In this document: positions 2,696 through 52,235 of the stretch, one piece after another
How positions within the stretch are numbered: position 1 is the stretch's first letter
Layout of the letters: each line of letters starts with the position of its first letter
From: Anaerobacillus sp. CMMVII
GTDB taxonomy: Bacteria; Bacillota; Bacilli; Bacillales; Anaerobacillaceae
Direction of reading: 5' to 3'
DNA length: 64,000 bases
Assembly (NCBI RefSeq): GCF_025377685.1
Contig: NZ_JACEHK010000010.1
Span: 124,001 to 188,000 of the forward strand
The notes under the pieces: model-generated
What the model saw: only the letters and a program-made list of their open reading frames with translations
What the model was told of the DNA's origin: nothing
Databases searched by the model: none
Position numbers and translations under genes: made by a program

Positions 2696-4116
2696 ATGGC
2701 TCAAGAATATGATCTGGTTATCCTAGGAGCTGGTACTGGAGGCTATGTGGCTGCAATTAAAGCATCGCAGTTAGGGTTGAAAGTCGCCGTTGTAGAAAAA
2801 GGTAAATTAGGTGGAACATGCTTACATCAAGGGTGTATTCCAAGCAAGGCGCTACTTCGAAGTGCAGAAGTATATTCAACGATGAAGAATTCCCTCGAAT
2901 TTGGAGTCAGTGCAAATGACGTAACCTTACACTTTGATAAAGTACAGCAACGAAAGCAACATATTATTGATACTCTTCATAAGGGTGTACAACACCTCAT
3001 GAAAAAAGGGAAAATTGATGTATACGAGGGACTAGGTCGTATTTTAGGACCTTCTATTTTTTCACCTACACCAGGAACAATTTCAGTCGAGATGAATAAT
3101 GGTCAAGAAAATGAAATGCTTATACCGAAGAATGTTCTAATTGCTACTGGTTCAAGACCAAGGTCATTACCAGGTCTTGAAATTGATGGGCAATACGTAC
3201 TTTCTAGTGACGAGGCTTTGCAAATGGAATCCTTACCAGAAACAATTGTAATTGTTGGTGGTGGAGTAATCGGGATAGAGTGGGCTTCAATGCTAGTCGA
3301 CTTTGGGGTAAAGGTAACGGTACTTGAATATGCAGATCGTATATTACCTACCGAAGATCACGAAATTTCCAAAGAGGCACAACGGTCTCTGAAGAAAAAA
3401 GGCGTAAAGATTGTAACAAGTGCCAAAGTTCTTCCAGAAACGCTTGTAAAAGGTGAAGGAGTCTCGATCCAAGCAGAACACAAAGGTGAAACCAAAACGT
3501 TCACTGGACAAAAGTTACTTGTTTCTGTTGGTAGGCAAGCAAATATTGAGGGAATTGGCCTTGAAAACACGGACATCCGAATTGAGAATGGGGTTATTAA
3601 ACGAATGAGTTTTACCAAACAAATGAATCGCATATTTATGCAATTGGTGACGTAATTGGTGGCTTACAATTAGCTCATGTTGCTTCTCATGAAGGTATTA
3701 TTGCAGTAGAACATATGGCGAATCAAAATCCACATCATTTGGATTATTCTTTGATTGCCAAATGTGTATACAGTGCACCTGAAATTGCAAGTGTCGGATA
3801 CACAGAGAACGAAGCGAAAGATAAGGGTTTCAAAGTCAAGACAGGAAAATTCCTATTTAAAGCGATAGGTAAAGCCTTAGTATTTGGTGAAACAGATGGA
3901 TTTGTGAAACTTGTAGTTGATGAAGAAACAGAAGATTTATTAGGAGTTCACATGATTGGGCCTCATGTGACCGATATGATTTCTGAAGCAGCTTTAGCAA
4001 AAGTACTTGATGCAACTCATTGGGAAGTTGCAAATACAATTCATCCACATCCTACGCTATCAGAAGCCATTGGTGAAGCGGCATTGGCAGTAGATGGAAA
4101 AGCAATTCACGGTTAA
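2696..4116 (+). CDS. lpdV: Dihydrolipoyl dehydrogenase, E3 of the branched-chain complex (frame broken at 3599-3601)
   Basis: FAD flavoprotein that reoxidises the lipoamide of the E2 subunit with NAD+. FAD-binding GAGTGGYVAA is at the N-terminus, the redox-active disulfide motif GGTCLHQGCIP follows, then a second Rossmann motif VGGGVIGIEWAS. The C-terminal interface domain has HPHPTLSEA with the catalytic His-Glu. The frame ends prematurely at 3655. Adding one A to AAA at 3599-3601 reads on as TNEFYQTNESHIYAIGDVIGG and restores a 473-residue protein. Start chosen at ATG 2696 after GAGGTGG. It lies between buk and bkdAA, as in Bacillus subtilis. Confidence 0.93.
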
Positions 4117-4269
4117 AAAGTTATGAGTTAAGAGTGTTGAGTTGTAAAAGCAAGTCTTTGAAGCTTTCGATTAATTTCAAAACTCAAAACTACAAACAAT
4201 GAAGTTGTGTTAAATACGATTTGGGCGTCGTTTCACAACTTGATTTACATAATAAAAGGGGGTCTTATA
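4117..4269. other. lpdV-bkdAA spacer with inverted AACTCAAAACT motifs
   Basis: A 153-base gap inside an operon that is otherwise tightly packed. It holds degenerate GAGTT-type repeats (4125-4148) and their inverse TTTCAAAACTCAAAACTAC (about 4177-4195), able to fold back on each other. The same 7-mer (CAAAACT) forms the tandem array before dinB. The strong ribosome binding site AAAGGGGG at about 4255-4262 belongs to bkdAA. No gene seen. Confidence 0.6.
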
Positions 4270-5268
4270 ATGACAGAAAACCGTCATGCAGCAGTAGGTT
4301 TAACTGACAATGATGTGCTTGAAATGTATGAAACAATGTTACTTGCAAGAAAAATAGATGAAAGAATGTGGCTGCTTAATCGTGCTGGGAAAATTCCATT
4401 TGTTATTTCTTGTCAAGGACAAGAAGCGGCACAAGTTGGTGCGGCATTTGCTTTAGACAAAGCAAAAGATTATATTTTACCGTACTATCGTGATATGGGG
4501 GTTGTATTACGCTTTGGAATGACTGCACGTGATTTAATGTTGTCAGCATTTGCAAAGGCAGAGGATCCAAACTCGGGTGGTAGACAAATGCCTGGTCACT
4601 TTGGTCAGAAGAAAAATAGAATTGTAACTGGATCTTCTCCTGTTACTACACAGGTTCCTCATGCGGTTGGAATTGCTTTAGCAGGCAAAATGCAAGGCAA
4701 AGATTTTGTTACTTTTACGACATTTGGAGAAGGTTCTTCAAACCAAGGTGATTTCCATGAAGGCGCAAACTTTGCAGCGGTTCATAAGCTTCCGGTTATC
4801 TTAATGTGTGAAAATAACAAATATGCGATTTCAGTACCGATCCATAAGCAATTAGCTTGTGAGAAAGTATCAGATCGTGCAATTGGCTATGGTATGCCAG
4901 GTGTTACAGTTGATGGAAATGATCCAATTGCTGTTTACGAAGCTGTTAAAGAAGCAGCAGACCGTGGTCGTAGAGGTGAAGGTCCTACTTTAGTTGAAAC
5001 AGTTTCTTATCGTTTAACACCTCACTCGAGTGATGACGATGATCGAGCATACCGTTCTAGAGAAGAAGTTGAAGAAGCAAAGAAAAAGGATTCTATCTTT
5101 ACCTTTAAGGCATATTTACAACAGTTAAATATCCTAACAGAAACTAACGAGCTAGAGATTAATGAGCGTATTGCCAAAGCGGTAAATGATGCAACTGAAT
5201 ATGCAGAAGCAGCACCGTATGCGGATGCAGAATCAGCGTTAAAATATGTTTATGGAGAGGGGGAATAA
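4270..5268 (+). CDS. bkdAA: Branched-chain 2-oxoacid dehydrogenase E1 alpha subunit
   Basis: Thiamine-diphosphate-dependent decarboxylation of the keto acids of Val, Leu and Ile, working as an alpha2beta2 tetramer with BkdAB. The ThDP/Mg motif begins GEGSSNQGDFHEG and ends about 30 residues later at CENNKYAISVP. YRLTPHSSDDDDRAYR matches the phosphorylation-loop region of E1 alpha. The frame is open from 4207, but ATG 4270 follows AAAGGGGG at the right distance and gives 332 residues, the family length. bkdAB starts 4 bases after the stop, indicating translational coupling. Confidence 0.95.
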   Translation: MTENRHAAVGLTDNDVLEMYETMLLARKIDERMWLLNRAGKIPFVISCQGQEAAQVGAAFALDKAKDYILPYYRDMGVVLRFGMTARDLMLSAFAKAEDPNSGGRQMPGHFGQKKNRIVTGSSPVTTQVPHAVGIALAGKMQGKDFVTFTTFGEGSSNQGDFHEGANFAAVHKLPVILMCENNKYAISVPIHKQLACEKVSDRAIGYGMPGVTVDGNDPIAVYEAVKEAADRGRRGEGPTLVETVSYRLTPHSSDDDDRAYRSREEVEEAKKKDSIFTFKAYLQQLNILTETNELEINERIAKAVNDATEYAEAAPYADAESALKYVYGEGE

Positions 5269-5271
5269 GGG

Positions 5272-6255
5272 ATGCCGATTATTTCTTATATTGATGCCGT
5301 TACTTTAGCGATAAAAGAGGAAATGGAACGAGATGATAAAGTATTCGTTCTAGGAGAAGATGTTGGTACTCGCGGTGGTGTGTTTAGAGCAACAAATGGA
5401 TTGCATGACCAGTTTGGTGAAGAACGTGTGATTGATGCACCTCTAGCCGAGTCTGCGATTGCAGGTGTAGGAATTGGTGCAGCCATGTATGGCATGAGAC
5501 CAATTGCTGAAATACAATTTGCTGATTTTATCATGCCAGCAGTAAATCAAATCGTCTCAGAAGCAGCAAGAATTCGCTATCGTTCTAATAATGACTGGAA
5601 TTGTCCAATTGTTATCCGTGCTCCTTATGGCGGTGGTGTTCATGGTGCTCTTTATCATTCCCAATCAGTAGAAGCAATGTTTGCTGGTATCCCTGGATTG
5701 AAAATTGTCATGCCTTCGACTCCATACGACGTAAAAGGGTTACTTAAAGCAGCAATTCGTGATAACGATCCTGTACTTTTCTTTGAGCATAAACGAGCTT
5801 ATCGTTTAATTAAAGGAGAGGTACCTACAGAGGATTACACGATTCCAATTGGAAAAGCAGATGTAAAACGAGAAGGTGATGATATTACGGTCATTACCTA
5901 TGGTTTAGCTGTTCATTTTGCTTTACAAGCAGCGGAACGGTTAGCAAAAGATGGTTTTTCAGCGCATATCCTTGATTTACGTACGGTTTATCCATTAGAT
6001 AAAGAAGCAATTATTGACGCTGCTAAGAAAACTGGAAAAGTACTTCTTGTAACTGAAGATAATAAAGAGGGTAGCATCATGAGTGAAGTTGCAGCAATTA
6101 TTGCTGAACATTGTTTATTTGATCTCGATGCACCAATTCAGCGTTTAGCTGGTCCAGATGTACCAGCAATGCCTTATGCACCAACAATGGAAAAATTCTT
6201 TATGATCAATCCTGATAAAGTCGAAAAAGCGATGCGAGATTTAGCGGAATTTTAA
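5272..6255 (+). CDS. bkdAB: Branched-chain 2-oxoacid dehydrogenase E1 beta subunit
   Basis: Transketolase-like partner of BkdAA that completes the ThDP site and docks on the E2 core. Seen: FVLGEDVGTRGGVFRATNGL, then APLAESAIAGVGIGAA, EIQFADFIMPAVNQI and the conserved HSQSVEA; the C-terminal transketolase domain has DLRTVYPLD and VTEDNKEG. At 327 residues it is full length. The ribosome binding site GGAGAGGGGGAATAAGGG overlaps the end of bkdAA, and bkdB follows 17 bases after the stop. Confidence 0.95.
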   Translation: MPIISYIDAVTLAIKEEMERDDKVFVLGEDVGTRGGVFRATNGLHDQFGEERVIDAPLAESAIAGVGIGAAMYGMRPIAEIQFADFIMPAVNQIVSEAARIRYRSNNDWNCPIVIRAPYGGGVHGALYHSQSVEAMFAGIPGLKIVMPSTPYDVKGLLKAAIRDNDPVLFFEHKRAYRLIKGEVPTEDYTIPIGKADVKREGDDITVITYGLAVHFALQAAERLAKDGFSAHILDLRTVYPLDKEAIIDAAKKTGKVLLVTEDNKEGSIMSEVAAIIAEHCLFDLDAPIQRLAGPDVPAMPYAPTMEKFFMINPDKVEKAMRDLAEF

Positions 6256-8291: not shown

Positions 8292-9443
8292 ATGAAATTT
8301 CGATCAATAAGTTTTGCAATCATATTAGTACTTACGACATTTTTATCAGCGTGTGGAGCTAAAGAGGAAGAACCCACAGATCATACGTTAGTTGATCCAG
8401 ATGTTGCCGATGAAATGCAAGTTTTACAAGTCTATACTACTATTTTTCCACTGATGGATTTCACGCAAAAAATTGGGGGAGAATATGTTGATGTCAAAAG
8501 TATAATTCCTTTAGGAGCAGACGCTCATACATTTGAACCATCTCCGAAAACAATGGTAGACGTTTCGAATGCTCATTTGTACATATACAATGGAGCAGGA
8601 ATTGAGGGTTTTGCTGATGCTGCAGCTGAAGTTTTAAAATCTGGAAATGTAAAAATTTTAATGGCGTCAGAAAATGTAGATTTATTAAAATTTGACGAAC
8701 ACAACCATGATCATGACGATCACGGTCACGATGATCACGGACATGATCATGACGATCACGGACACGAGGATGACGCACATGATCATGACGATCACGGACA
8801 CGATCATGATGATCACGGTCACGAGGATGACGGACACGATCATGACGATCACGGTCACGATGATCACGGAGATGACCATGACGAAGATCACTCTGATGAT
8901 GATCACAATCATCAACATGGAGAAGAAGATCCTCATATTTGGTTAGATCCAATTCGTTCGATTCAAATTGCAGAGAATATCAAAAATGCACTAGTAGAGT
9001 TATTACCTGAAGCTAGTGAAGATTTCGAAAGTAATTTCCTTTCTTTAAAGGAACAATTAGAAGCCTTAGATGGAGAATTTAAGAAGATGGTTGAAGAGGT
9101 TTCAAAAGATACCATTGTCGTTTCTCACGCCGGTTATGGCTATTGGACTGAGCGCTACGGAATTAAACAAGTAGGTATTTCGGGGATCTCACCTACAAAT
9201 GAACCGTCAATTAGACAAATAACCAAGGTTATTGAATTTGTAGAACATAACGAAATTAACTTTATAATATTTGAGCAAAATATTCCGATGAACATCGCTG
9301 AGACTGTTCGTTCACAAGTTGGTGCTGAAGTTCTATGGTTACACAATCTAGAGGCGCTAACTGAAGAGGACGTAGAAAATGGTGCCGATTATTTCAGTCT
9401 CATGGCTAATAATATTGAAACTTTAAGAACCGCATTAAGATAG
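8292..9443 (+). CDS. Zinc ABC transporter substrate-binding lipoprotein with a very large His/Asp loop
   Basis: Cluster A-I (ZnuA/AdcA-type) metal receptor anchored outside the membrane. Lipobox LSAC at residues ~18-21. The metal ligands of the family are visible: His in DAHTFEPSP (~79), His in DPHIWLDP (~213), His in VVSHAGYGYW (~277) and an acidic ligand region near IIFEQN. Between the first and second ligands, residues ~136-210 are almost only His, Asp, Gly and Glu in repeats of DHDDHGH, far longer than the short loop in typical ZnuA. No permease or ATPase gene is adjacent, so the partner must lie elsewhere. Two Zur-like boxes precede it. Confidence 0.92.
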   Translation: MKFRSISFAIILVLTTFLSACGAKEEEPTDHTLVDPDVADEMQVLQVYTTIFPLMDFTQKIGGEYVDVKSIIPLGADAHTFEPSPKTMVDVSNAHLYIYNGAGIEGFADAAAEVLKSGNVKILMASENVDLLKFDEHNHDHDDHGHDDHGHDHDDHGHEDDAHDHDDHGHDHDDHGHEDDGHDHDDHGHDDHGDDHDEDHSDDDHNHQHGEEDPHIWLDPIRSIQIAENIKNALVELLPEASEDFESNFLSLKEQLEALDGEFKKMVEEVSKDTIVVSHAGYGYWTERYGIKQVGISGISPTNEPSIRQITKVIEFVEHNEINFIIFEQNIPMNIAETVRSQVGAEVLWLHNLEALTEEDVENGADYFSLMANNIETLRTALR

Positions 9444-9489: not shown

Positions 9490-9643
9490 AGGTTCATTTC
9501 TAAAACATTGTTGCTTTTTTTGTGAAAATTCCTTAGATAAAGATATCCCCAAATAAATTGAGTAAGAAAAGAGCACTACTTACTAAATAAGTAGGGAAAT
9601 CTTAGTATTTACTTAAGCAACAAACTTTGCGAAAACAGCCTTT
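9490..9643. repeat. MITE-like element, copy A
   Basis: About 154 bases. The left end GGTTCATTTC..AACATTGTTGC and right end GCAACAAACTTTGCG.AAAACAGCC are inverted copies of each other. The interior AAGAAAAGAGCACTACTTAC is shared with copies B (inverted) and C. The remaining 9644-9857 is AT-rich and holds the brxB promoter region; no gene seen there. Confidence 0.75.
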
Positions 9644-10909: not shown

Positions 10910-11100
10910 GGCTGTTTTCGCAAGAATTGTTGCTTTCGTAAAAATCCCAAAAGTCGGATTTTTACACATACATACTAAAATTTCACTACTTATTTAGTAT
11001 GTATTGCTCTTTTCTTACTAAATTTATTGGGTAATATCTTCATCGAAGGAATTTTTCAATTTATTAGGTTAATATGCAACAATGTTTTAGAAAAGAGCCT
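10910..11100. repeat. MITE-like element, copy B
   Basis: About 191 bases. Starts GGCTGTTTTCGCAAG..TTGTTGC and ends GCAACAATGTTTTAG.AAAAGAGCC, the inverse of the start. The interior is the reverse complement of the interior of copies A and C (ACTACTTATTTAGTA, GCTCTTTTCTTACT). It ends 13 bases before the -35 box of the tRNA promoter. Confidence 0.82.
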
Positions 11101-18351: not shown

Positions 18352-18428
18352 TAAGTGTCAGTTACCAAGTAGTTAGATACGTGTAAACTCTTACATCTAA
18401 CTACTGTGGTACCTGACACTTTTTTTAA
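18352..18428 (+). terminator. Strong terminator after the TRAP permease
   Basis: AGTGTCAGTTACCA..GTAGTTAGAT pairs with ATCTAACTAC..TGGTACCTGACACT, followed by T7; about 24 paired bases. Confidence 0.92.
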
Positions 18429-18600
18429 AGATAAGAATGTATAAAATTTCAACGTAATAACTGTCTAGCTCCACCGCCCAGCCCCTCGAGGTCAAATAAC
18501 CTTCGAGAATAAAAGTGAAAGAGCACACTTTTTTTCTCGAAGAACATTTGCTAGTCGGGGCTTAACAGGGCGCTTGCGCTTTTCTTAGCATATTGATATT
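18428..18600. repeat. Hairpin repeat family R, copy 1
   Basis: Starts AAAGATAAGAATGTATAAAA and ends GGGCGCTTGCGCTTTTCTTA. The central part folds on itself: CGCCCAGCCCC with GGGGCTTAACAGGGCG, TTCGAGAA with TTCTCGAA, and AAAAGTG with CACTTTT. Other copies at 38775, 51450 and 52050. The rest of the 700-base gap 18320-19020 holds a terminator, a MITE-like copy and the promoter of the ABC operon. Confidence 0.85.
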
Positions 18601-34132: not shown

Positions 34133-35364
34133 TAAACCGGTTCATATGGTGTAATTTCTCTAAAAATAAACGTTTTTGTTGTATTCATAATTGGTTGGAA
34201 GTTTTCAAAAGCAGATATTGGATGCACTTCGCTAATATTTAGGGAATAAAAGACAGATTTATCAACTTTTAAACTATAAAGATAATAGTCATCTAAATGG
34301 CCAGTAGTCTTGTTTTTGACTTGAGTATAGCCTGATATGATAATGGTTTCACAAGTAGGTAAAAGTGAAAAGACATAGGAACATAAGTAAAGGGCGGTGC
34401 CACCAACCATGATCGCGTAGTGTTCACGCAGTTCGCGTTGTGATTTTTTTTGTATCTTTACTTTTCCAGACTTTAGTATTTCTGCTTTTGTTAATGGGAT
34501 TTCTTCCATTTGTGGTAAATCTACATCCAGGTAGACAGTATTGGGCGTAATGATTTCAAAAGAAACATTTGTGTCTAATGGAAAATCTAGCATAGCTAGG
34601 AAGCTTTCTAGCCAAAGTTCCATCCCACCAATATCACCGCTAATAACCCTCTCTACTTTTGCTGATCGTTTGAGTTTTGCTTCTTCGTATTCTTCTTTTG
34701 CTTGCTCATATAATTTTAATTCATGCTCGTATTGTTGGTTAGCTTCACTTTTCACCTTTTCTATAAAAAGGTTTCGCTTTTTAGGGAGCAGTAAACTGAG
34801 CCTCTCAAGGAAACTTAAATTTTCCTCAAATTCAACTTTTAATTCTTCATAGATTTCCTTGTTATTTGGCTTTTGTACATCAAGAGTCACTGTTTTCCGT
34901 GCTAATTCTCTAAGTTCGTCTGGTGATCTTTCATGTAAAATTTCTTTGTGGAGATTAAGCAGCTGTTTTGTATGTGAATTTATCTCTTCTTCTTTTTGGT
35001 CATATATTCTTTGAATATCATCTTGAAAATCGCGTTTGATTTCTCTTTCAATTGCTGGTGGTACTCTTTGGCCTTCTTCATCAACAAAAACGAGGGATTG
35101 AGATTCTTTATCGAAATTTAATGTGACTGCTCCAGAAATATCCTGTTTTCCGTTTTTTTGGCTTGAAGAGTGTCCAATTGCTTTATCTAATTTTGTTCGA
35201 TAAGAGAGGCCACTGCCTGGGATACCGATGTTGCCATAAAGTCCGCTACGTCCCAATGTAATACTACTGCCACGTCTTCCAACCGAGGTACTAACTCCAC
35301 GCTTACTTATATTTAATCGTAGACCTGGTGCTATCTTCACTCGTTTTTGAAATCGAAAGCTCAT
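34132..35364 (-). CDS. DUF4236 domain-containing protein
   Basis: A 410-residue protein with the DUF4236 N-terminal domain (residues ~1-55): FRFQKRVKIAPGLRLNIS, then KRGVSTSVGRRGSSIT and GLYGNIGIPGSGLSYR. A long charged central region with coiled-coil potential (EHELKLYEQAKEEYEEAKL) is followed by a globular C-terminal part of unknown fold. No signal peptide. Function unknown; DUF4236 proteins are often linked to mobile or defence-like regions, but nothing nearby supports that here. Confidence 0.85.
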   Translation of the reverse strand: MSFRFQKRVKIAPGLRLNISKRGVSTSVGRRGSSITLGRSGLYGNIGIPGSGLSYRTKLDKAIGHSSSQKNGKQDISGAVTLNFDKESQSLVFVDEEGQRVPPAIEREIKRDFQDDIQRIYDQKEEEINSHTKQLLNLHKEILHERSPDELRELARKTVTLDVQKPNNKEIYEELKVEFEENLSFLERLSLLLPKKRNLFIEKVKSEANQQYEHELKLYEQAKEEYEEAKLKRSAKVERVISGDIGGMELWLESFLAMLDFPLDTNVSFEIITPNTVYLDVDLPQMEEIPLTKAEILKSGKVKIQKKSQRELREHYAIMVGGTALYLCSYVFSLLPTCETIIISGYTQVKNKTTGHLDDYYLYSLKVDKSVFYSLNISEVHPISAFENFQPIMNTTKTFIFREITPYEPV

Positions 35365-35483
35365 GATAAAACACTCCTAAATTTGATGTCAGTTATATCG
35401 TACTAAACTTTTACATAATTATAAAGCAATATTTCACAATTTGTTCAAAAAATGCGCTATGATAAGCAAAAGGTGGGACTAAA

Positions 35484-35906
35484 TTGGCTAAAGGAGAATT
35501 TGTTTTTAAGACGAAATTGCCTATAGATAAAAACATAGCATGGAATTTTTTTAATGATATTAATAATTTAGTTCGGATCATTGCTTTCCCGAAAATTACG
35601 ATTATCCTTTATGAGGGAGTGAAGAAGGGTAGCAAAACTGAACTTGACTTAAACTTTTATCTCTTCAAAACAAAATGGCTGTTAACCTATGTTGAGGTTG
35701 ATAAAGGTCATTATTTCATCGATAAAAGTACGTCTTTACCATTCCCTTTTAAAAGTTGGGAGCATACTCATTCCTTTGAAGAAGAAGATGGGAAAGTAAC
35801 GATAATGACCGATAAGGTTAGGTTTGAATCATATCTTCCAGGATTTATTACAAAGATTGGTCTTTATTTAGGCTCTTTTCGTAAACATTGTGGCTTTTTA
35901 ACGTAA
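35484..35906 (+). CDS. SRPBCC/START-like protein whose C-terminus is encoded by a repeat element
   Basis: TTG start at 35484 after AAGGTGGG. The 140 residues follow the helix-grip pattern: KLPIDKNIAWNFFNDINNLVRI, a run of beta strands (TIILYEGVKKGSKTELDLNF, HYFIDKSTSLPFPFKSWEHTHSF) and a long C-terminal helix starting FITKIGLYLG. It resembles CoxG-type SRPBCC proteins; the ligand is unknown. From about 35870 the coding sequence runs into the terminal repeat of a MITE-like element, so the last ~11 residues and the stop codon come from it. The final helix is therefore shortened. Confidence 0.75.
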   Translation: MAKGEFVFKTKLPIDKNIAWNFFNDINNLVRIIAFPKITIILYEGVKKGSKTELDLNFYLFKTKWLLTYVEVDKGHYFIDKSTSLPFPFKSWEHTHSFEEEDGKVTIMTDKVRFESYLPGFITKIGLYLGSFRKHCGFLT

Positions 35907-36062
35907 AATAATTGGAAAAATTTCATAGATGAAGATATCACTCAATAAATTGAGTAAGAAAAGAGCACTACTTACTAAATAAGTTGTGAATTTTTAGTGT
36001 TATTGTGTAAAAATCCGGCTTTTGGGATTTTTACGAAAGCAACAAACTTTGGAAAACAGCCT
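35870..36062. repeat. MITE-like element, copy C
   Basis: About 193 bases. GGCTCTTTTCGTAAAC.ATTGTGGC at the left, GCAACAAACTTTGG.AAAACAGCC at the right. The interior matches copy A and the inverse of copy B (GAGTAAGAAAAGAGCACTAC, and the AAATCC..GGATTTTTACG arm). It overlaps the end of the SRPBCC gene. Confidence 0.82.
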
Positions 36063-36097
36063 TATTTTATGTTTAGAGGTCGGCAACGCTCAATAAG

Positions 36098-36133
36098 AAA
36101 ACACCTTCTAAAATAAGAGAAGGTGTTTTCTGC
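36098..36133. terminator. Terminator at the end of namA
   Basis: AAAACACCTTCT and AGAAGGTGTTTT pair across AAAATAAG; usable on either strand. Confidence 0.85.
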
Positions 36134-36149
36134 AAATAATGATATTTAA

Positions 36150-37166
36150 CTACCAGCCACGTTCATACGATTTAGGTACTTCAATAGAAGTATTAAGTTC
36201 TTTAGCAAATGTTCTTGGTAAGTAGGGGTCTCGTAAAAATGGTCGAGCGATGAAAATAAGGTCAGCTCTTTCATTTCGTAAAATTTCTTCTGCTTGATTT
36301 CCTGTTGTTATCAGGCCTACTGCGCCAGTAGGAATAGTAGCTTGGTGACGAATGGTTTCTGCATAGCGAACTTGATAGCCAGGGTAAGCATCAATTGCTG
36401 CGGGAACAACGGCTCCCGAGCTACAATCAATTAGGTCTATGCCTTGTGCTTTCATTTTTTTGCCATATTCAACAAAGACATCTAAGCTATTTCCTTCCTT
36501 TGCATATTCATTTGCGGAAATGCGAACGAAAAGTGGACCTTCCCAGACTGTTTTTATATTGTTAATTACATGTTTTAATATCTCATAACGTCTCTCGGGA
36601 GTGCCTCCAAAGGCATCATCACGGTGATTAGTTAATGGAGATAAGAATTCATTGAGTAAATACCCGTGTGCAGCATGGATCTCAATTACATCGAAACCAG
36701 CTTGCTTAGCTCGTTCTGCCCCTTTTTTAAAGGCCTCGACCGTCTCAAAAATTTGCTCTTCCGTCATTTCTTCAGGGGTTTGCATCGTTTCGTTAAATGG
36801 AATGGGAGATGGAGCAAAAATTGGACCTTTTACCATTGCTTTTCTACCGGCATGCGCTAACTGAATACCAATCTTCCCACCTAGTTCGTGTACATGATCC
36901 ACCAAGCGCTTCAAACCTTCAATGTGGGCATCATCCCAAATACCCAGGTCTTGATCTGAAATTCTTCCTTGCGGTGTTACCGCTGTTGCTTCAATAATAA
37001 TTAAACCTACTTGTCCTATTGCACGACTTCCATAGTGAGTAACATGCCAATCTGTAACGAATCCCTTCTTATTATCAGCCATATACATACACATAGGAGC
37101 CATTACTAGGCGATTTTTTAAAGTGATGTTTTTAAGTTCATAAGGTGAAAAAAGCAGTGAAGACAC
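36150..37166 (-). CDS. namA: NADPH dehydrogenase NamA (Old Yellow Enzyme, YqjM)
   Basis: FMN-dependent ene-reductase that reduces alpha,beta-unsaturated carbonyls and nitro compounds, linked to oxidative stress. OYE barrel: [14 protein letters not shown] (redox-tuning Cys ~26), [27 protein letters not shown] with the substrate His pair, and [20 protein letters not shown] start at 37166 after AAGGAGGG. Length 338, equal to YqjM. Same relative position as yqjM in Bacillus subtilis. Confidence 0.95.
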
Positions 37167-38746: not shown

Positions 38747-38775
38747 AAAAACCCTTAGAATTGAGGGTTTTTTTC
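38744..38775 (+). terminator. Terminator after the 78-aa protein
   Basis: AAAACCCTTAG and TTGAGGGTTTTTTT pair with a small AAT loop and a T tract. Confidence 0.85.
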
Positions 38776-38942
38776 AAAAGATAAGAATGTATATGCGTTT
38801 TTAGTACTTGGTGTCTAGCTTCAGGCGCCATCGGCTCGAGGTCAAATAACCTGCCAGATATAAAAGTGAAAAGCGCACTTTTAATCTGACAGAACATTTG
38901 CTTGTCGCCGATAGGCGGGCGCCTTGCGCTTTTCTTACGTTT
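38775..38942. repeat. Hairpin repeat family R, copy 2
   Basis: Same AAAAGATAAGAATGTAT opening and GCGCTTTTCTTACG end as copy 1, but the stem arms read GGCGCCATCGGC and GCCGATAGGCGGGCGCC instead of the copy 1 CCCAGCCCC/GGGGCT arms: paired changes on both sides. A truncated MITE-type block (CCCCGAGACCTTGATATATC) follows to 39003. Confidence 0.85.
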
Positions 38943-50949: not shown

Positions 50950-51450
50950 ATGATAAAAGTGTTATTTGTTTGCTTAGGGAATATATGTCGTTCGCCAATG
51001 GCGGAAGCGATTTTTAGACAAAAGGTAATAAGGGCCGGACTTGAGGAGAAATTTCTAATAGATTCAGCAGGAACAGGTAGTTGGCATATTGGTAAACGTC
51101 CACATGAAGGTACGTTGGAAATCTTAACAACGTATAATATCGATAGTTCCGAAATTACTGCTAGGCAATTGCAGCAAGATGACTTAAAAATATTTGATTA
51201 TATCCTTGCAATGGATGCAGAAAATTTAGGTAACCTCCATCGCTTAAAAGGAAGAGAGGAATCTGGAGAAATTTGCAGATTACTTGATTTCATTCCCGAA
51301 ATAGAGGTCTCTGATGTACCGGATCCCTATTTTACAGGGAATTTTGAAGAAGTGTATGATTTGCTAGAACAGGCATGCACCGAACTACTTACATATATAA
51401 GAAAAGAGAAAAGATTTAATAAAAAAGCTGACTCAGGTCAGCTTTTTTAA
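50950..51450 (+). CDS. Low-molecular-weight protein tyrosine phosphatase (YfkJ-like)
   Basis: Class II PTPase: the P-loop VCLGNICRSPMAEA (C-X5-R-S) at residues ~8-21, SAGTGSWHIGKRPHEGT, and the general-acid Asp in DVPDPYFTGNFEEVYDLLEQA. Length 166. It resembles Bacillus YfkJ, which dephosphorylates tyrosine and, in some strains, arginine-phosphorylated proteins (the latter is the YwlE branch). The last codons (KKADSGQLF) are encoded by the terminator hairpin, so the C-terminal tail is probably not functional. Confidence 0.92.
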   Translation: MIKVLFVCLGNICRSPMAEAIFRQKVIRAGLEEKFLIDSAGTGSWHIGKRPHEGTLEILTTYNIDSSEITARQLQQDDLKIFDYILAMDAENLGNLHRLKGREESGEICRLLDFIPEIEVSDVPDPYFTGNFEEVYDLLEQACTELLTYIRKEKRFNKKADSGQLF

Positions 51451-51452
51451 AA
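51420..51452 (+). terminator. Terminator overlapping the end of the phosphatase gene
   Basis: AAAAAAGCTGAC and GTCAGCTTTTTT pair across TCAG. Confidence 0.92.
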
Positions 51453-51610
51453 GATAAGAATGTATAAAATTTCAAAGTAATAACTGTCTAGCTCCACCGT
51501 CCAGCCCCTCGAGGTCAAATAACCTTCGAGAATAAAAGTGAAAGAGCACACTTTTTCTCGAAGAACATTTGCTTGTCGGGGCTCCCAGGACGCTTGCGCT
51601 TTTCTTACGT
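51450..51610. repeat. Hairpin repeat family R, copy 3
   Basis: Nearly identical to copy 1 over its whole length, but the outer stem reads CGTCC / GGACG instead of CGCCC / GGGCG, a compensated change. Inner stems TTCGAGAA/TTCTCGAA and AAAAGTG/CACTTTTT are kept. Confidence 0.9.
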
Positions 51611-52049: not shown

Positions 52050-52235
52050 TGTCTAGCTCCGAGCGCCAACTGCTCCTGCGGTTACTCGTCGCAAAGGTGC
52101 AAAGGTGTAACTCATTGAAGTCCTTGGCTCGAGTCAAATAACCTGCCAAATAAAAAAGTGAAAAACCCACTTTTTTACTGTCAGAACATTTGCTTGTCGC
52201 CGTCAGGCGGGCGCTCTGTGCTTTTCTAATAAACA
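52050..52235. repeat. Hairpin repeat family R, copy 4 (with insertion)
   Basis: GTCTAGCTCCGAGCGCCAAC at the left, GCCGTCAGGCGGGCGC at the right, and AAAAAAGTG/CACTTTTTT inside. About 55 bases (TGCTCCTGCGGTTACTCGTC and on) are inserted in the left arm. The stretch 51796-52049 otherwise holds AT-rich DNA and the sspH promoter region; no gene seen. Confidence 0.8.

Follow-up and report, generated by a model that had tools for sequence, protein, structure and literature searches.

A MITE with IS1595-type ends inserted in an SRPBCC gene of Anaerobacillus supplies a new C-terminus, removes a conserved motif and probably impairs the protein

The window analysed here is a 64,000-nucleotide stretch of the draft genome of Anaerobacillus sp. 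CMMVII, and the locus of interest lies near its middle. In the ORF list of the window, a frame of 140 amino acids starts with TTG at 35484 and ends with TAA at 35906 on the forward strand. A ribosome-binding-site-like AGGTGG was seen by eye upstream of the start. The first 129 codons from the TTG (35484-35870) are the native part of an SRPBCC (Bet v1-like) gene, and the alignment with homologues likewise extends to about residue 129. The last native codon falls within a target-site duplication. At 35871, exactly on a codon boundary, the frame enters the left terminal repeat of a miniature inverted-repeat transposable element (MITE), named copy C, and reads GGC TCT TTT CGT AAA CAT TGT GGC TTT TTA ACG TAA. 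This stretch (35871-35906) adds 11 residues, GSFRKHCGFLT, and the stop codon at 35904-35906. The original prediction, made from the letters of this DNA, had the frame running into the repeat at about 35870 and taking its last 11 or so residues and its stop from the element, and both points held.

Copy C spans 35871-36061 on the forward strand. It is 191 bp long, has IS1595-type ends and carries no transposase gene, as expected of a MITE. The repeat proposed originally is thus real, with its right edge at 36061 and not 36062. Terminal inverted repeats are present at both ends (GGCTCTTTTCG on the left and GGCTGTTTTCC, on the reverse strand, on the right), and the whole element folds with its ends paired (-43.2 kcal/mol, z -3.27). 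All three frames entered from the left edge are closed by the element after 3 to 11 codons, and those entered from the right edge after 9 to 28 codons. Copy C would thus act as a stop cassette at most landing sites within genes.

The target duplication flanking copy C is nearly perfect. The right flank reads TTATTTTA (36062-36069), and the left flank, read by analogy with the other copies, is TTATTTA (35864-35870), one T short of 8 bp. Aligned as TTATTT-A against TTATTTTA, the two agree at 7 of 8 positions with one gap, or at 6 of 8 ungapped. These flanks fit an 8-bp target duplication from which one T has since been lost. Less likely, the duplication is an exact 5 bp, TATTT, and the element extends one base further on both sides. 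Across the family, an 8/8 AT-rich duplication was found in 21 of 39 copies when a shift of one base was allowed at the right edge.

Directly 3' of the element lies FMFRGRQRSIRKHLLK, and the orthologue ends from three relatives of the same genus (G001, G002 and G003) align to it. This stranded native 3' end (36066-36116, forward strand) includes a native Met codon at 36069 and the native stop at 36114-36116, and lies outside the present protein. The suggestion that the original 3' end might be found after 36062 was therefore borne out. A convergent gene on the reverse strand (36150-37166), which we take to encode a NamA-like flavin oxidoreductase, follows, and its DNA aligned at the same place in all three relatives.

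Between the two genes, a hairpin with a 14-bp stem (36096-36131) extends over both the native stop and the last part of the native coding sequence. It occurs at the same place in the orthologues of G003 (L002) and G001 (L004), and G002 has only a weak one. The hairpin is probably a terminator common to the SRPBCC gene and the convergent gene. Because a consensus terminator scan of 35300-36200 reported none there, we treat this role as an inference. Its stem coincides with the codons of the native RKHL (KKHL in relatives), and coding and probable terminator constraints thus coincide at the native 3' end. As one arm of this strong hairpin is made up of those last codons, little weight can be given to how well the stranded tail has been preserved.

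Comparison with homologues lacking the element was the check proposed at the outset, and G001, G002 and G003 provided it. In each of them the gene occupies the corresponding position, lacks the element and continues to a native-type end. The interval between the aligned flanks is 205 bases in the window versus 7 in G003, and 308 versus 93 in G001. In G002 the interval, taken between alignment block ends, is about 264 bases versus 287 in the window and holds no element match; the lengths are similar because G002 has a longer or diverged tail and spacer. Gene order around the locus is widely conserved. Colinearity with the window is extensive, though not complete, in all three: it covers about 57 kb in G001, interrupted at about 11-19 kb, the stretch of about 17 to 54 kb in G003 and that of about 25 to 45 kb in G002. 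The three orthologues are 57-67% identical to the window protein. A close strain was sought and none was found, these being the nearest orthologues. The homologue search in six genus relatives found none in G004-G006, two of which are less than 85% complete.

A protein search of the genome's contigs returned no relatives of the window protein, and homologues were taken from a wider genome search. Matches at E <= 1e-10 were found in 51 of 397 genomes of the order, the window's own included, and the ends of the homologues were read in 30 of the other 50. All 30 carry the motif MFxxR near their end, and the chimera lacks it. No repeat-free homologue ended in the same residues as the window protein (0 of 30). 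The motif count excludes two remote homologues, L011 and L012; L012 is not comparable, and the end of L011 reads IFSYRKK, that is I-F-x-x-R with I replacing M. An alignment of 29 homologues (L260 left out) has 16 invariant columns, of which the chimera retains 13; the three it lacks are those of MFxxR. The insertion has severed this motif from the protein.

The window protein had no match in Pfam or NCBIfam, and the G003 homologue likewise had none in Pfam. The family assignment comes from the 27 homologues that were aligned once L249, L258 and L260 had been set aside. At E <= 0.1, PF03364 was matched in 15 and PF10604 in 13, both polyketide-cyclase/lipid-transport profiles of the SRPBCC superfamily. 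A profile built from the 27 homologues, searched against PDB sequences, matched 3oh8 (E 4.5e-6) and 3ijt (E 0.3). AlphaFold2 predicted a helix-grip fold for the intact G003 homologue, with a long C-terminal helix at 119-140 and a mean pLDDT of 93.5. The best 40 PDB matches of this model by E-value were plant PR-10/Bet v1-type proteins and PYL receptors, with a query TM of up to 0.83, with PYL2. By the homologues for its family and by the model of the G003 homologue for its fold, we assign the gene to the SRPBCC superfamily, as one of the Bet v1-fold, ligand-binding type.

For the chimera, AlphaFold2 gave a mean pLDDT of 89.9 and a last helix at 120-138, so that the helix passes through the new residues. 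The mean pLDDT of residues 131-140 is 52, versus 90 in the G003 homologue. The final helix had been predicted to be cut short. With a helix of 120-138 against 119-140 that continues into a low-confidence tail, its second half is replaced rather than simply truncated. The chimeric tail may thus still form a helix. The model describes the fold of the chimera, not its activity.

The element belongs to a large family in this genome. The end pattern, at up to 3 mismatches, occurs at 137 + 131 = 268 places, and a reversed-pattern control occurs at none. Within the window, a shorter end pattern was found at 11 places versus a mean of 1.83 in shuffles. Searched against the genome, the 191 bp gave at least 47 matches at E <= 0.001, with 40 of 260 first-look candidates scored, and the best other copy among the matches listed is 95% identical to copy C. 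Three copies were found in the window by similarity: a partial one at 9491-9640, one at 10910-11099 and copy C.

The survey of flanking reading frames covered 39 loci of the at least 47 matches, excluding L237 and seven matches that were partial or end-only, and registered frames that have a start codon and at least 50 amino acids beyond the element. Copy C is the only one of the 39 that terminates a recognisable gene. At L231 a 52-amino-acid frame, with no sign so far of being a gene, also ends in a copy.

Some copies carry further structure. The MITE copy at L040 (1501-1692) has apparently landed in a further member of its own family: both its 8/8 duplication, TTAACCTA, and the bases flanking it belong to element sequence. 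A nearly identical insert, CTCCTGCGGTTACTCGTCGCACA, lies inside the left terminal repeat of 11 of the 39 surveyed copies (L024, L027, L028, L031, L032, L033, L037, L038, L230, L231 and L235). It sits just before base 1500 in the element orientation and, by eye, is better conserved than its surroundings. As a 23-mer with up to 2 mismatches it occurs in all 7 genus genomes, at 103 places in G000 and 201 in G004, in places spaced 34 bases apart. Its sole match in the window is at 52073, just before one copy of a dispersed repeat of the form GTCAAATAACC...GGGCGC...GCTTTTCT, found at 18420-18587, 38770-38937, 51443-51610 and 52133-52227. Elsewhere in the window, repeats of 15 and 21 bases alternate over 8678-8914 (GATCACGGACACGATCATGAC...); translated, they would give a stretch rich in His and Asp of the kind found in metal-binding proteins. 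At gathering thresholds, Rfam matched a T-box leader (RF00230, 46641-46853, reverse strand, 106.5 bits) and one tRNA only in the whole window.

The distribution of copies bears on the time of insertion. G001 has 268 element ends, the same count as the window's genome, G002 and G003 have none, and G004-G006 have 6, 13 and 7. At the orthologous places in G001 there is no space for any of the three window copies, and the two nearly full G001 copies within the stretch compared are both missing from the window, a short partial match in L225 being set aside. As copies are unshared between the window and G001, these insertions postdate the split of the two lineages. In the alignment of copies, for which 21 of 30 loci were long enough, copy C falls in a star-like group of eight that are 3.2% substitutions and 0.46% indels per site from their consensus. 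Copy C itself differs from this subfamily consensus by 6 substitutions and 1 indel.

To find what moved the element, 222 loci were scanned for paired ends. Two pairs of inverted ends, with up to 4 mismatches each, were flanked by 8/8 duplications and enclosed an open frame of 344 amino acids. They were L192 of Metabacillus mangrovi (959-2431, 1473 bp) and L156 of Perspicuibacillus lycopersici (3539-5458, 1920 bp, with a further ORF). The two transposases scored 210.2 and 203.4 bits against NF033547 (cut-off 75; E 3.3e-62 and 3.9e-60) and 62 and 58.7 bits against PF12762 (cut-off 27). The zinc ribbon PF12760 scored 24.8 and 22.3 bits, just below its cut-off of 25.4. By these profile matches both transposases belong to the IS1595 family. 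A DDE_Tnp_IS1595 transposase, with a zinc-ribbon match below the cut-off, is encoded in the elements sharing these ends, whereas copy C, which has no transposase gene, shares with them the ends and the duplication length alone. The IS1595 family is usually flanked by 8-bp duplications (PMC8101967), and ISEc69 of this family duplicates an AT-rich 8-bp target (PMC7835479), both features being like those of copy C.

The ISL3 family was also considered as the parent family, since we took GGCT ends with 8-bp duplications to point there at first. It was rejected, as PF01610 had no match in the genome (the control matched 4 of 14 genomes) and the intact elements with these ends proved to be IS1595.

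PF12762 had no match in the window's genome, a 21-contig draft, the same profile having matched 1 of 14 control genomes. The L192 transposase had no match in the 7 genus genomes in a search run without a positive control. In a draft of 21 contigs an IS copy could be missing from the assembly. With no IS1595 transposase found in the draft, the MITE family is probably immobile there now, and would be stranded in this genome.

Together, these results suggest the following course. A 191-bp non-autonomous MITE with IS1595-type ends landed in the 3' portion of a chromosomal SRPBCC gene, duplicating an AT-rich 8-bp target. An IS1595-family transposase, acting in trans, is the candidate for having moved it, judged by the ends and duplication length shared with elements of other genera, and its gene would since have gone from the genome. 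Translation now reads 11 codons of the left terminal repeat and then stops, and the last native codons with MFxxR stay in the DNA behind the element, no longer read as part of the gene.

The insertion, the derived state of the locus, the chimeric end and the loss of the motif were established. The consequence for the protein is most likely impaired or lost function. We assign a probability of about 0.8 to the overall reading that a MITE with IS1595-type ends, moved in trans by an IS1595-family transposase, inserted in an SRPBCC gene, gave it a new C-terminus, removed its motif and left the protein impaired or lost. The original prediction had left the choice between capture of coding sequence and inactivation. 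Its first part stands, as the MITE supplies the C-terminus and the stop in a gene whose relatives lack the element, with a stranded tail behind it and a near-perfect duplication. On the choice itself, loss of a motif that 30 of 30 homologues keep favours impairment, while 129 codons remain open with no excess loss of conserved residues.

This last observation counts against impairment, because an open body without excess decay would be expected of a still useful protein. At the 85% level the body loses 1 of 27 conserved positions, against 0 in G003, 1 in G002 and 1 in G001. A neutral-survival simulation was run 5000 times per setting, with 90% of indels taken as frameshifts and with a clock that assumes the eight most similar copies to have been initially identical. 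An unconstrained body stayed open with a probability of about 0.11 at full subfamily age, 0.31 at 2% substitutions and half the indel rate, and 0.56 at 1% and a quarter. These figures lean slightly to retained constraint without deciding the matter.

It is accordingly conceivable, but unlikely, that the insertion was tolerated and the protein still folds, with the 11 element-derived residues ending its last helix. The open body with its conserved positions, the start codon and RBS-like site, the predicted helix through the new residues and the value of 0.11, should the insertion be as old as the subfamily divergence, speak for such a retained protein. Against it stand the loss of a motif common to all homologues read, the low confidence of the predicted tail and the higher neutral survival of a younger insertion (0.31 and 0.56), which would explain the open frame without selection. 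A working chimera, in which the MITE terminal repeat forms the new end of the gripping helix instead of the motif that all inspected relatives retain, the ligand or partner has changed and the native tail is kept solely as a terminator, we consider a speculative and rather improbable outcome.

The remaining readings concern the insertion itself and have next to no weight. It is extremely improbable that 35906 is the gene's natural end and the repeat merely its 3' region: the frame is open and ends cleanly within the repeat, but three relatives without the element continue to a native-type end, which is still legible behind the element here next to a near-perfect duplication. An assembly artefact joining two unrelated places via the repeat, conceivable in a draft genome with 268 element ends, is just as hard to credit, since both flanks belong to one gene, the neighbours stand in the same order as in three relatives and the target duplication is present.

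MITE-derived C-termini have precedents. In Coxiella burnetii, QMITE1 and QMITE2 overlap 3' gene ends and change C-terminal residues, as described by Wachter et al. 2018 (PMC5896051), and in one strain the last 33 residues of enhC are presumably element-derived, with a stop directly downstream. QMITE2 has a full size of about 190 bp, close to the 191 bp found here, but is a different element. The QMITE authors report no significant change in protein mass, whereas here a family-conserved motif is lost (in 1 of 39 copies). In Enterobacteriaceae, the MITE-like repeat RU-1 gives C-terminal residues to the amidase ECA3499 and the PapB-like YPO3245 (Delihas 2007, PMC2759123). RU-1 duplicates TA, in contrast to the 8 bp of copy C, and its addition lies beyond the conserved domain in both proteins, whereas copy C lies inside the last helix. 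The Rickettsia palindromic elements, according to a review (PMC10969869), are mobile repeats translated in frame within host proteins as part of them, whereas copy C ends translation.

Our search of the open-access literature found no paper on a MITE family with IS1595 ends in Bacillaceae. As MITE-derived C-termini are already published, the present case adds an instance and not a principle. As a snapshot it is unusually complete: relatives free of the insertion, a native tail that can still be read, the duplicated target, a probable family for the transposase and an approximate clock are all available. Because the insertion severs a motif common to the inspected relatives, the chimera is a useful case for asking whether such a capture is tolerated or the gene disabled.
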